A stretch of 64,000 nt of DNA from Gemmatimonadaceae bacterium (lineage in GTDB: Bacteria > Gemmatimonadota > Gemmatimonadetes > Gemmatimonadales > Gemmatimonadaceae): NCBI GenBank assembly GCA_020851035.1, contig JADZDM010000001.1, positions 1 through 64,000 of the forward strand, given 5' to 3'. Positions 34,508 through 38,467 of this stretch are shown one piece after another. The notes under the pieces are model-generated. The model ran no database searches. It was not told the DNA's origin and saw only the letters and a list, made by a program, of their open reading frames with translations. The first letter of the stretch is position 1. Each line of letters opens with the position of its first letter. The position numbers and the translations under genes were made by a program.

Positions 34508-34584
34508 CCGCGGCGCCACCGCGCGCGCACCGCTCCTGACACTCCACCTCGCGCGACACCGTCGCGACCACCGCCGGGGAAGCC

Positions 34585-35592
34585 ATGCACCTGCCGTTCC
34601 GGATCACCGCCGTCACCGCGACGCGGCTCACCGCCCTCGCACTGCTGGTGACGGCGCTCGCGCCGCCGCTCGCGGCGCAGCGTGCGGCGCGCCCTCGCAG
34701 CACCACGCCACCGGGATGGCGCCTGGCCTGGCACGACGAGTTCGCCGGCACCACGGTCGACACCACGAAATGGGGCTTCGATCTCGGCAACGGGTTCACG
34801 GGCGACAACGGCGTGTACGTGGCCGGCTGGGGCAACGACGAGCTGCAGTGCTACACCAGCGACCCGAAGAACGTGTTCGTGTCCGGTGGCTCCCTTCACC
34901 TGCGCGCGCGGCGTGGTGGCGCCGAAGGTTGTGCCTTCACCTCGGCCAGGCTGCGCACGCGACGGCGTGACGGGAGCGCGCTGTTCGCCGCGACGTATGG
35001 CCGGTTCGAGTTCAGGGCGCGGCTGCCGGTGGGCCAGGGCATCTGGCCGGCACTCTGGATGTTGCCGCATGACACGAAGTACGGCACCTGGGCCGCGAAC
35101 GGCGAGATCGACATCATGGAGGCACGCGGGCAGACGCCCTCGACCGTGCTCGGCACGCTGCACTACGGTGCGCGCTGGCCGAAGAACGTGCACACGGGGA
35201 TGGACTACGTGCTGCCGCGCGGCGGCACGATCGCCGACTTCCACGTGTACGCGCTGGAGTGGGAGCCGGGGCGCATCCGCTGGCTGGTGGATGGGGTGGC
35301 GTACCAGGAGCAGCGGTTCTGGTGGAGCAGCGCGGCGATGGCGGATGGCCAGGGCGTGATGCCCGCGGGTGAGTCCGACCTGCACCCCTGGCCGGCGCCG
35401 TTCGACCGCCCGTTCCACCTGCTGATGAACCTGGCCGTGGGCGGCCGGTTCCTCGGCAATCCGGATGCGACCACCCCGTTCCCGGCCACGATGGAGGTGG
35501 ACTGGGTGCGCGTCTTCGAGCGGCGCGGTGGCGCGGGGGCGCTCTCGCCTCGTGGTGCCGGTCTCCTGCCGTGGGCGCAGCCGTCGCGCTGA
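34585..35592 (+). CDS. GH16-family glucanase (laminarinase-like), exported
   Basis: 335 aa. A signal peptide ends at LAAQR. Family 16 glycoside hydrolase: catalytic motif GEIDIMEARG (Glu nucleophile and acid/base), the entry WHDEFAGTTVDTTKW, the aromatic cleft QGIWPALWMLP, LHYGARWPKN, and the exit RPFHLLMNLAVGG, VDWVRVFER. Likely cleaves beta-1,3 or mixed-link glucans outside the cell. A short Gly/Ala/Pro tail ends the protein. A hairpin with a T run follows 80 bp downstream. Confidence 0.92.
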   Translation: MHLPFRITAVTATRLTALALLVTALAPPLAAQRAARPRSTTPPGWRLAWHDEFAGTTVDTTKWGFDLGNGFTGDNGVYVAGWGNDELQCYTSDPKNVFVSGGSLHLRARRGGAEGCAFTSARLRTRRRDGSALFAATYGRFEFRARLPVGQGIWPALWMLPHDTKYGTWAANGEIDIMEARGQTPSTVLGTLHYGARWPKNVHTGMDYVLPRGGTIADFHVYALEWEPGRIRWLVDGVAYQEQRFWWSSAAMADGQGVMPAGESDLHPWPAPFDRPFHLLMNLAVGGRFLGNPDATTPFPATMEVDWVRVFERRGGAGALSPRGAGLLPWAQPSR

Positions 35593-35673
35593 GGGTGACT
35601 CGGCGGAAACCGTCTAAAGCGCAGACATTCGGTTAGTCGTGTGCGGGTCTCGCGGCTGACGCTGCCGGCGATC

Positions 35674-35700
35674 CCCCTCTGGCGCTTTTGTGAGGGGTTT
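35674..35700 (+). terminator. Intrinsic terminator after the GH16 gene
   Basis: CCCCTC (35674-35679) pairs with GAGGGG (35692-35697) and is followed directly by a T run (TTTT). It lies about 80 bp after the GH16 stop and separates that gene from the antenna promoter. Confidence 0.55.
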
Positions 35701-35745
35701 TCCTGTTTCGCAGGGGAGTGGTCCGACGCGGCGTCCGCGGCTAAC

Positions 35746-35812
35746 TGTCAATCTTAGTTGACGCTTGAAGATGTCACGAAGCCTTGACACCAGCGGGAGC
35801 GGGCGCAGAATA
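35746..35812 (+). promoter_or_regulatory. Antenna promoter with tandem PpsR/CrtJ boxes
   Basis: Two TGT-N12-ACA-type sites: 35746-35763 (TGT...ACG, one mismatch, but with a perfect GTCAA/TTGAC inverted repeat) and 35772-35789 (exact TGT...ACA). Exactly 8 bp separate them, the spacing known for cooperative CrtJ/PpsR binding at photosynthesis promoters. The second box contains TTGACA (35784-35789), a perfect -35, with CAGAAT 16 bp downstream as a -10. A repressor on the boxes would block polymerase. Repression in oxygen or strong light is inferred from the family; no ppsR gene is in the window. Confidence 0.85.
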
Positions 35813-35941
35813 GGACTGTGGTTCCGGACTTGTGTTGTCGCGAGGACAACGCCGGAGACGGGAACACTCTGCATGGCTAGCCGAGCCATGGTCCCCCTAC
35901 GTGCGGGTAAGCACGGAAGTTGTTGCTCCGGGAGATTCGTT

Positions 35942-36100
35942 ATGGCAGATAACGATCCGAATCGCGTCTGGCCGTCAGGCCTGACGACGAGGGAAGCTGA
36001 GGAGTTGCACGACGGTCTGAAGCAGGGCACCCGCATTTTCGGTGCGATTGCGATTGTGGCACACATCCTCGCGTTCATTCAAACTCCCTGGCTCAAGTAG
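35942..36100 (+). CDS. pucB: LH2-type light-harvesting beta polypeptide
   Basis: 52 aa. Beta apoprotein of an antenna ring that binds bacteriochlorophyll in the membrane. Pattern as in LH2: LTTREAEELHDGLKQGTRIF then IVAHILAFIQTPWLK. H41 matches the B850 ligand (His30 of the Rhodoblastus acidophilus protein), H23 the conserved second His, R31 the Arg that hydrogen-bonds B800. ATG 35942 has GGGAGA six bases upstream; an in-frame extension back to 35765 overlaps the promoter and is rejected. A 130-base leader holds two small hairpins (35834-35850, 35872-35890). Confidence 0.95.
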   Translation: MADNDPNRVWPSGLTTREAEELHDGLKQGTRIFGAIAIVAHILAFIQTPWLK

Positions 36101-36112
36101 AGGGCTACCGTC

Positions 36113-36352
36113 ATGAACGAAGGAAAAATCTGGACCGTCGTGAAGCCGAGCACGGGTGTGCCGCTGTTCCTGGGCACGGTCGTCGTGATGGTCTTCGCGG
36201 TTCACTATGCGATCCTGTCGCACACGACCTGGTTCGCGTCCTACTGGCAGGGTGGTGCCAAGGCTCCGGTGACGGCTTCGGCACCGGCGATCGAAACCGC
36301 TCCGGCAGCTGCAACGCCGACGTCGGCTGCACCGGCAACGCCTGCGCCGTAA
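36113..36352 (+). CDS. pucA: LH2-type light-harvesting alpha polypeptide with long C-terminal tail
   Basis: 79 aa. The first 50 residues follow the R. acidophilus B800-850 alpha protein position for position: MN-GKIWTVV-P--G at the start, H31 as the B850 ligand, AILSHTTWF, and Y44-W45 (SYWQGG), the pair that red-shifts B850. The N-terminal Met corresponds to the B800 ligand. Unlike the 53-aa classical protein it has a 27-residue Ala/Pro/Thr tail ([18 protein letters not shown]...). It starts 12 bp after pucB. It may correspond to the outer-ring LHh antenna known from Gemmatimonas phototrophica; I cannot confirm that here. Confidence 0.94.
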
Positions 36353-36356
36353 TGGT

Positions 36357-36409
36357 CTTGCCGAAAGGCAAGGCGTCATAGGGGCCGGGATCTTCGATCC
36401 CGGCCCCTA
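36357..36409 (+). promoter_or_regulatory. Two intercistronic hairpins between pucA and pucC
   Basis: Hairpin 1: CTTGCC / GGCAAG closing a GAAA tetraloop (36357-36372), five bases after the pucA stop. Hairpin 2: a perfect 14-bp stem TAGGGGCCGGGATC / GATCCCGGCCCCTA with a 3-nt loop (36379-36409). No T run follows, so they look less like a terminator than like the mRNA-stabilising hairpins that raise antenna transcript over downstream genes in puf/puc operons. Partial termination remains possible. Confidence 0.7.
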
Positions 36410-36457
36410 CGTCGCTTCCGCCCTTCCGCTTTCCGGCATCGGGGTCAGTTTTTCGGC

Positions 36458-37861
36458 ATGAATCGGATCTCCCGCAAGGTTCTCAGCGCCTGGGCGTCAC
36501 AGGGATCGCGGCTGCTCCCGTTTGCGGATGTGGCGACGCCGGACCTGCCGCTGGCGCGCCTGCTCCGGCTCTCGCTGTTCCAGATCTCGGTCGGCATGGC
36601 TTCCGTGCTCCTGGTGGGCACGCTCAACCGGGTGATGATCGTCGAGCTGAGGGTCCCGGCGTCGATCGTCGCGATCATGATCTCGCTGCCGCTGCTGGCC
36701 GCCCCGTTCCGTGCCCTCATCGGCTTCCGTTCCGACACGCACACCTCTGCCCTGGGGTGGCGTCGTGTGCCGTACATCTGGAACGGCACGATGCTCCAGT
36801 TCGGCGGCTTCGCGATCATGCCGTTCGCGATCCTGGTGGTGTCGGGACGCAACGCGGTCGGTGCGCCAGACTGGATCGGCCAGGTCGGTGCGGGCCTCGC
36901 GTTCCTCCTCGTCGGTGCCGGACTGCACACGGTGCAGACGGCGGGACTGGCGTTGGCCACGGACCTGGTCGCCGAGGACTCGCAGCCGCGGGTCGTGGGG
37001 CTGATGTACGTCATGCTGCTGGTCGGGATGATCGCGAGTGCGATCGTGTTCGGGTGGCTGCTCACCGATTTCTCGCCCGGGCGGCTGATCCAGGTGGTGC
37101 AGGGCGCGGCGGTGGCGACGATCATCCTGAACGTCATCGCGATGTGGAAGCAGGAAGCGCGTGACCCGAACAAGACGCGCGAAGGGCGGGTGGAGCCGTC
37201 GTTCGCCGAGTCGTGGTCCAGCTTCATCGCCGGTGACGGCGCGATTCGCCGCCTGATCGCGGTGGGCATCGGCACGATGGCCTTCAGCATGCAGGACGTG
37301 CTGCTGGAGCCGTACGGCGGGCAGGTGTTGGGCCTGACGGTGGCGAACACCACGCGGCTCACGGCCACGCTCTCCTCGGGTGGCCTGCTGGGGTTCCTGC
37401 TGGCGTCCCGTCTGCTCGGGCGTGGCGGTGATCCGTTCCGCATGTCGTGCAGTGGCGCATTGGCGGGGATTCCCGGCTTCGCGTTCGTGATCATGGCGGC
37501 GCCGATGCACTCGGGGCTGCTGTTCTTTGCCGGCACCTTCCTGATCGGGTTCGGCGGTGGGCTGCTGAGCCACGGCACGCTGACGGCGACGATGCAGAAT
37601 GCGCCGGAGGCGCAGCGCGGGCTGGCGCTCGGTGCGTGGGGGGCGGTGCAGGCCTCGGCGGCGGGGCTTGCGGTGGCGTTCGGGGGCGTGGCGCGCGACG
37701 TGATGAACGGGTTGCAGTCGCGGTCGGTGTTGGGCTTCAGCCTGGATGGCCCCGCCACCGCCTACACCTTCGTCTACAGCCTCGAGATCGTGCTGCTGGT
37801 GGTGGCACTGGTGGCGATGGCGCCGTTGATCCGCCGCGCACCCCACGCGGTCACGGCCTGA
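36458..37861 (+). CDS. pucC: PucC/LhaA-family antenna assembly protein
   Basis: 467 aa, about 12 transmembrane helices. Member of the bacteriochlorophyll-delivery (BCD) branch of the MFS, needed to assemble LH1 or LH2. The sequence shows the family's opening LARLLRLSLFQISVGMASVL, GTLNRVMIVELRVPASIVA, GFRSDTH followed by GWRRVPYIWNGTML, and PYGGQVLGLTVANTTRLTA, all PucC/LhaA-like. Same strand as pucBA, 105 bp downstream across the two hairpins, so probably read from the same promoter at lower level. Start ATG 36458. Confidence 0.93.
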   Translation: MNRISRKVLSAWASQGSRLLPFADVATPDLPLARLLRLSLFQISVGMASVLLVGTLNRVMIVELRVPASIVAIMISLPLLAAPFRALIGFRSDTHTSALGWRRVPYIWNGTMLQFGGFAIMPFAILVVSGRNAVGAPDWIGQVGAGLAFLLVGAGLHTVQTAGLALATDLVAEDSQPRVVGLMYVMLLVGMIASAIVFGWLLTDFSPGRLIQVVQGAAVATIILNVIAMWKQEARDPNKTREGRVEPSFAESWSSFIAGDGAIRRLIAVGIGTMAFSMQDVLLEPYGGQVLGLTVANTTRLTATLSSGGLLGFLLASRLLGRGGDPFRMSCSGALAGIPGFAFVIMAAPMHSGLLFFAGTFLIGFGGGLLSHGTLTATMQNAPEAQRGLALGAWGAVQASAAGLAVAFGGVARDVMNGLQSRSVLGFSLDGPATAYTFVYSLEIVLLVVALVAMAPLIRRAPHAVTA

Positions 37862-37876
37862 CCGGTCACGCGCCGG

Positions 37877-38191
37877 TCATTCGCCGGGCGTGATGCGTTC
37901 GTCGCGGCCCGGCGACGCCACGTCGCGCAGCAGGCCCTGCTGCTCGCGCAACGAGCGCCATTCGGCATCGAGCGCGGCGCGCGCCACGCGCAGGGCTTCA
38001 CGCTCCCGCTCCACCTCGCGCTGGGCCTCGTAGAGCTCGGCCACGCGGGCGCGCAATTCCTGCAGCGACAGCAGCTCGAGTGCGGCGGGCGAGGGCAGGG
38101 CGCTGGCGCGGCGCTCGATCGGGCGTGGTGCGGCGGCGATGTCGGGCAGGGAGATCGATGCGGCGTCTGCGGGGCGGCGCGCGTCGGTCAT
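37877..38191 (-). CDS. Small coiled-coil protein, function unknown
   Basis: 104 aa from ATG 38191. An N-terminal Ala/Pro-rich stretch with SLPDIAAAPRPIERR is followed by a long charged helix (LQELRARVAELYEAQREVER and EALRVARAALDAEWRSLREQ) that should form a coiled coil. No family recognised. It lies convergent with pucC, 15 bp from its stop. A longer frame upstream is not supported. Confidence 0.55.
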   Translation of the reverse strand: MTDARRPADAASISLPDIAAAPRPIERRASALPSPAALELLSLQELRARVAELYEAQREVEREREALRVARAALDAEWRSLREQQGLLRDVASPGRDERITPGE

Positions 38192-38400
38192 CGTGCTGCA
38201 CTCCGTGGGGATCGTGGTGTCGCGCGCATCGACACGTGCTGGGCGCGAGCCGGTATCACGGCGGGCAGTCGGCACTGCATCGAGCCGACGGGTGCATCGG
38301 GGAAAGGTAGGGTTGATACGGCGTCGTGACGAGGTCGATCCGACCGGCCGCCCGCACTCATCCGTTTGCCGGATCTCGTCGCATCCCACCGATCGCGACA

Positions 38401-38448
38401 ACGGTCCGAGGGGCAGGCACCGGTGCGTGTGCCTGCCCCTCGGACCGT
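38401..38448 (-). terminator. gyrB terminator hairpin
   Basis: ACGGTCCGAGGGGCAGGCAC (38401-38420) pairs perfectly with 38429-38448 around an 8-nt loop, a 20-bp stem lying 20 bp beyond the gyrB stop. There is no clear T run on the gyrB side, but nothing else explains so strong a hairpin. Confidence 0.75.
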
Positions 38449-38467
38449 GTGCGACCCTGCCAGCGGC

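Follow-up and report, generated by a model that had tools for sequence, protein, structure and literature searches.

The window analysed here, a 64,000-base stretch of DNA, spans positions 1-64000 of the 215-kb contig C1 in the Gemmatimonadaceae genome G000. It carries pucB, pucA and pucC as intact open reading frames, in that order on the + strand, and the locus comprises the following features.

34508..38467, no strand: 3.96-kb interval with the GH16 gene and pucBAC, missing from a third species of the genus, G281 (locus comparison)
34585..35592, + strand: GH16-type glycosidase gene (Pfam Glyco_hydro_16, 4.3e-17; synteny)
35746..35789, + strand: tandem PpsR/CrtJ-type operator, TGT-N12-ACG, 8 bp, TGT-N12-ACA, overlapping the -35 box
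35784..35812, + strand: sigma-70-like promoter, TTGACA-N17-AGAATA (conservation in the sister species G393; promoter scan)
35942..36100, + strand: pucB, LH2 beta apoprotein, 52 aa (PDB matches, Pfam LHC)
36113..36352, + strand: pucA, LH2 alpha apoprotein, 79 aa, with an Ala/Pro-rich C-terminal tail (PDB matches, alpha tree)
36379..36409, + strand: 14-bp stem-loop between pucA and pucC (fold z-score; conservation in G393)
36458..37861, + strand: pucC, LH2-type antenna assembly protein (MFS/PUCC), 467 aa (Pfam PUCC, PucC tree)

The 52-aa PucB peptide (MADNDPNRVWPSGLTTREAEELHDGLKQGTRIFGAIAIVAHILAFIQTPWLK) and PucA were recognised by Pfam LHC (E-values of 4.6e-9 and 6.3e-11 for the pair), and PucC by PUCC (6.4e-153). 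When compared with all PDB chains, PucA found LH2 alpha chains as its best matches (7zdi, 4.3e-20; 1kzu/1nkz, 5.8e-20; 7zcu) and Gemmatimonas antenna chains at only ~1e-4, while the best matches of PucB were LH2 beta chains (7zdi, 2.8e-19, then 8z81 and 7ze3). Alignment with the LH2 of Rhodoblastus acidophilus showed matching alpha Met1, His31, Trp40, Tyr44 and Trp45 and matching beta His/Arg/His, i.e. the B850 ligands (alpha-His31 and beta-His) and the B800 site (alpha-Met1 and beta-Arg) are present. The coordinates and residues that an earlier note on this DNA had given for pucB and pucA proved correct. Judged by sequence, pucB, pucA and pucC are thus confirmed as a complete, canonical LH2 locus of the B800-850 type.

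LH2 forms small rings (7-9-mers) absorbing at 800 and 850 nm. In it, the B850 acetyl groups receive hydrogen bonds from Tyr44 and Trp45, and without this pair the B800-820 form results. The pigment ligands and the Tyr44-Trp45 pair are kept in both LH2-bearing species of the genus (G000 and G393), and because the pair is retained a B800-850 spectrum is expected; the red-shifted B850 ring predicted earlier is consistent with it. PucB also passes the NCBIfam model NF040862, named 'LH1 beta' (67.2 against a cut-off of 61), which we attributed to the misnaming of a broad model; such acceptance may be the reason why genes of this kind escape automatic annotation or get misnamed.

Control elements and conservation within the genus

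The tandem operator reads TGTCAATCTTAGTTGACG-8 bp-TGTCACGAAGCCTTGACA across the -35 box. The binding motif of PpsR is TGT-N12-ACA; a TGT-N12-ACG variant is known from one pucB site of Rubrivivax (PMC4452267). Both sequence features of a PpsR-type promoter were found, namely two close boxes (one an ACG variant, one exact) and a ppsR gene in the genome (match at 6.9e-140). Lone TGT-N12-ACA boxes were discarded as evidence (6 found vs 5.3 expected) in favour of the tandem arrangement, which occurred in 0 of 40 simulated 64-kb windows. The same two-box, 8-bp design recurs about equally far upstream of most fetched purple-bacterial pucBA loci and near pucB in G093 and G288, two genomes of a second Gemmatimonadota family, f5. 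In G393, the tandem operator is kept with two mismatches at fixed positions, and both promoter hexamers, TTGACA and AGAATA, recur unchanged in the same place (promoter scan: 1 found vs 0.2 expected). The intercistronic region folds with a z-score of -7.7 (36353-36420), and its hairpin is kept in G393 despite sequence changes. In purple bacteria, a pucA-pucC hairpin of this type lets pucBA RNA exceed pucC RNA.

From these elements, pucBAC is probably controlled through PpsR. In Gemmatimonas phototrophica, a single PpsR site was reported in the cluster, with little regulation (PMC11406998). Since PpsR regulates little there, the pucBAC operator may be inert; a regulated LH2 would be a difference from that species.

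The locus was then compared among the three genomes of the genus, g1. The sister species G393 shows the order M1 peptidase, GH16, pucBAC and gyrB, as in the window, on a 19,052-base contig, with a PucB 92 % identical to that of the window; the GH16 gene is directly upstream of pucBAC in both LH2-bearing species. In G281, the M1-peptidase gene and gyrB are ~190 bp apart with neither GH16 nor pucBAC between them, i.e. a clean empty site. The GH16 gene had no match in G281, and an LH2-type PucC was not found elsewhere in this 90 %-complete assembly. Either a gain of the 4-kb piece in the lineage leading to G000 and G393 or its loss from G281 would account for this difference; no mobile-element or insertion footprint was recognised at the junction in an alignment made by eye. 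Since G281 belongs to the same genus and is without LH2 at this locus, the antenna is dispensable. Between G000 and G393, dN/dS was 0.14 for pucB, 0.26 for pucA and 0.20 for pucC (0.27 for the neighbouring peptidase), and pucBAC is under purifying selection.

In another genome, G244, a gene beside gyrB (L189:5050-5592, - strand) encodes a 180-aa fusion of an LH1-type alpha chain with an OmpA-like domain, and thus shares the chromosomal neighbourhood (gyrB) of the window pucBAC.

The earlier note had placed the pair away from any reaction-centre genes and called for a search of the genome for pufLM and puhA. Its statement holds for the contig of the window but fails for the genome, where pufBALMC, a split puhA and bch genes all lie on contig C25. 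There, pufB, pufA, pufL, pufM and pufC are clustered, including LH1 genes of the genome's own; pufM is single-copy genome-wide, with none on the contig of the window, and pufC was identified by eye as a multihaem cytochrome. The puhA gene is split in two, a short membrane piece and L005:6533-7108 (both read by eye from ORFs), which agrees with the Hc and Ht subunits reported from G. groenlandica. C25 also carries bchFNBHLM, acsF, bchXYZ, bchID, bchP and ppsR. As G000 has its own reaction centre and LH1, the LH2 would therefore be an added peripheral antenna, encoded away from the cluster.

It is quite unlikely that pucBAC is real but consists of relics or is barely expressed. The absence of the locus from the third species and the little regulation of photosynthesis genes known in the phylum (PMC11406998) would both agree with this, but the intact ORFs with low dN/dS, the conserved promoter, operator and hairpin, and the complete set of reaction-centre and pigment genes all speak against it.

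Origin of the pucBAC genes

A purple-bacterial fragment wrongly assembled or binned with Gemmatimonadota is a highly unlikely source of the locus. The genus is represented by draft assemblies in all three cases, LH2 is typical of purple bacteria, and the G+C of pucBA is below that of its surroundings. However, the locus lies within a 215-kb contig, adjoining a Gemmatimonadaceae gyrB, and the GH16-pucBAC-gyrB order is repeated in the independent assembly of G393 with 72-92 % protein identity. Furthermore, the third-position G+C of pucC (0.91) is host-like, the values of pucBA agree with those of the host's own pufBA, and no fetched purple-bacterial record was equally close in PucB or PucC. Contamination was ruled out on the grounds of the G393 synteny and the host-like codon composition.

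As PucC is longer than the antenna peptides, it gave a clearer tree. In it, the window's genus forms a basal branch of the LH2-PucC clade, and the four LH2-PucC of f5 make up one group (97/88) among mostly gammaproteobacterial-type sequences. Constraining all six Gemmatimonadota LH2-PucC, a group fixed by phylum beforehand, to one clade cost 61 log-likelihood units (p-AU 0.0024), by which a single acquisition for Gemmatimonadota was rejected. With joint origin rejected, the PucC phylogeny points to two or more captures of LH2 by gene transfer in Gemmatimonadota, from different purple-bacterial sources. The PucC sequences nearest to that of the window come from a Gammaproteobacteria bog MAG (bog_1200, 69 % identical) and from Bradyrhizobium/Rhizobiales; no direct donor was found, and the basal position points to no named one. 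A plasmid origin was likewise discarded: among the plasmid matches listed, PucC relatives reach no more than 62 % identity and come from Pseudomonadota throughout. All LH2 loci returned by a scan of the genome collection belonged to Pseudomonadota, except those described here and one record titled only 'uncultured bacterium'.

In the PUCC tree, the LhaA proteins of G000, G393 and G281 (L154, L155 and L150) share a very long stem branch (0.96).

Antenna type and its distribution in Gemmatimonadota

The alpha tree (111 chains) has few columns, and only its deep splits were used. It places the window PucA inside a single LH2 clade (100/100) and the LHh chains in another (100/100), with the LH1 alpha of G000 outside both. 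Against the LH1-alpha model, the window chain scored 23.2 bits (cut-off of 35 bits), and it also falls outside LH1 in the tree. PucC belongs to the LH2-PucC clade (100/100), apart from purple-bacterial LhaA; in a wider PucC tree, the Gemmatimonadota LhaA proteins fall outside this clade, including that of G000. The earlier note had left open whether the pair was the LHh locus or a separately acquired LH2, and had named two findings that would count against its reading, peptides falling in an LH1 clade and pufLM directly adjoining them. The alpha chain groups with LH2, and pufLM is on another contig beside its own pufBA. For the window pair the question is settled, as far as sequences can do so, in favour of LH2, on account of the alpha clade, the PucC clade, the separate contig with pufLM and pufBA, and the absence of the LHh alpha from the genus.

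That the locus holds LHh outer-ring genes moved away from the puf operon is scarcely credible and was ruled out by clade and profile search: although no outer antenna other than LHh has been described in cultured Gemmatimonadota (PMC12817894), the LHh alpha chain PufA2 is of a different clade, encoded in Gemmatimonas between pufB and pufA and using the shared PufB without a beta of its own (PMC10214105), whereas the window pair includes a beta of its own beside an LH2 alpha, and G000, G281 and G393 have no LHh match above the LH1 cross-match (~35 bits).

With a search profile built from eight LHh chains, LHh was found at 77-120 bits in 29 of the 43 phototrophic Gemmatimonadota genomes. It was not found in the other 14, including all three of genus g1, from which pufA2 is absent by this search. 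LH2 is present in 6 of the 14 LHh-less genomes vs 0 of the 29 LHh-bearing ones, a distribution with a probability of 5e-4 (3003/6096454) if draws are independent, with just two LH2 origins behind it. As the origins number only two, the mutual exclusion of LH2 and LHh is suggestive rather than proven. Among 179 Gemmatimonadaceae genomes, the LH2 alpha is confined to the window's genus, and among the 18 Gemmatimonadota genomes searched, an LH2-type PucC (>470 bits against PUCC, beside pucBA) occurs only in LH2-bearing ones. No report of LH2 or puc genes in Gemmatimonadota was found in the open-access literature searched.

The second family, f5 (G150, G093, G166 and G288), carries a complete pucB-pucA-pucC and no LHh. 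The Tyr44-Trp45 pair of the window is altered in three of its four genomes: the alpha chain has Phe44-Met45 in G150 (L038:8327-8470) and Phe44-Trp45 in G093 (L041:5800-5960), and stops at residue 43 in G288 (L043:4277-4408). These variant chains are expected to give blue-shifted forms. In the 95 %-complete genome G166 (L040, contig C18), pucBAC is present, no pufM was found and there is only one PUCC gene; either this genome has LH2 but lacks a reaction centre, or a contig is missing from the assembly.

A probable peripheral LH2 in a foreign photosystem

Taken together, pucBAC is very probably a functional LH2 operon acquired by horizontal transfer, whose rings would feed RC-LH1 in the place of LHh. 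An ancestor of this Gemmatimonadaceae genus would have taken up pucBAC from a purple bacterium, a member of Pseudomonadota. Aided by PucC, PucB and PucA would assemble into small LH2 rings passing excitation to an ordinary single-ring RC-LH1 encoded by the C25 cluster. The operon, probably PpsR-controlled, would thereby fill the place held in Gemmatimonas by the fixed LHh outer ring.

The reaction centre of this genus has a peculiarity of its own. The PufM of G000 (L005:11162-12682, - strand, C25) bears a C-terminal OmpA-like domain (residues 392-488, Pfam 7.8e-20), also found in G281 (L236) and G393 (L240), hence in all three genomes of g1, and in none of 27 PufM tails read from other Gemmatimonadota. 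Frame lengths had suggested the fusion in all LHh-less Gemmatimonadaceae, but reading the tails limits it to g1. The PufM C-terminus is periplasmic, so the domain, of the peptidoglycan-binding type, could bind peptidoglycan and may tether the reaction centre to the wall.

More tentatively, and with rather less than even confidence, we propose that Gemmatimonadota have two exclusive second antennas, LHh derived from LH1 or LH2 captured at least twice, and that this genus combines a scalable, PpsR-regulated LH2 with a wall-anchored PufM-OmpA reaction centre. G. phototrophica was reported to have no LH2 genes (PMC5749889), and its outer LHh ring to be hardwired, with adaptability lost (PMC10214105). 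The known light-harvesting members of this phylum have a fixed double antenna ring, unlike the detachable LH2 of purple bacteria. Here, LH2 genes occur in the same bacterial family as Gemmatimonas, in LHh-less genomes, and in a second family from another source. This example suggests that a foreign photosystem can gain LH2 in the form of a compact module, three genes together with a regulator site of their own. It opens to test why the fixed double ring is retained by only some Gemmatimonadota, and G000 and G393, with LH2, vs G281, without it, provide a natural experiment within one genus.

Among known systems, the window alpha is 67 % identical over the core to that of R. acidophilus LH2 (1nkz) and 59 % to that of the Rhodopseudomonas palustris LH2 (7zdi). 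With both it has in common the pigment ligands, Tyr44-Trp45, an own beta, an adjacent pucC and a PpsR-type operator; unlike them, it has another host phylum, a single copy of the pair and an Ala/Pro-rich alpha tail exceeding that of the solved chains in length. The f5 pucBAC is, like that of the window, complete in LHh-less Gemmatimonadota, but a common PucC origin is rejected (p-AU 0.0024). With the LHh (PufA2) of G. phototrophica and G. groenlandica (7o0u, 9h19), the window LH2 would share the role of second antenna, in the same bacterial family, whereas LHh belongs to another clade and locus, shares PufB with LH1 and forms a fixed 24-mer ring.
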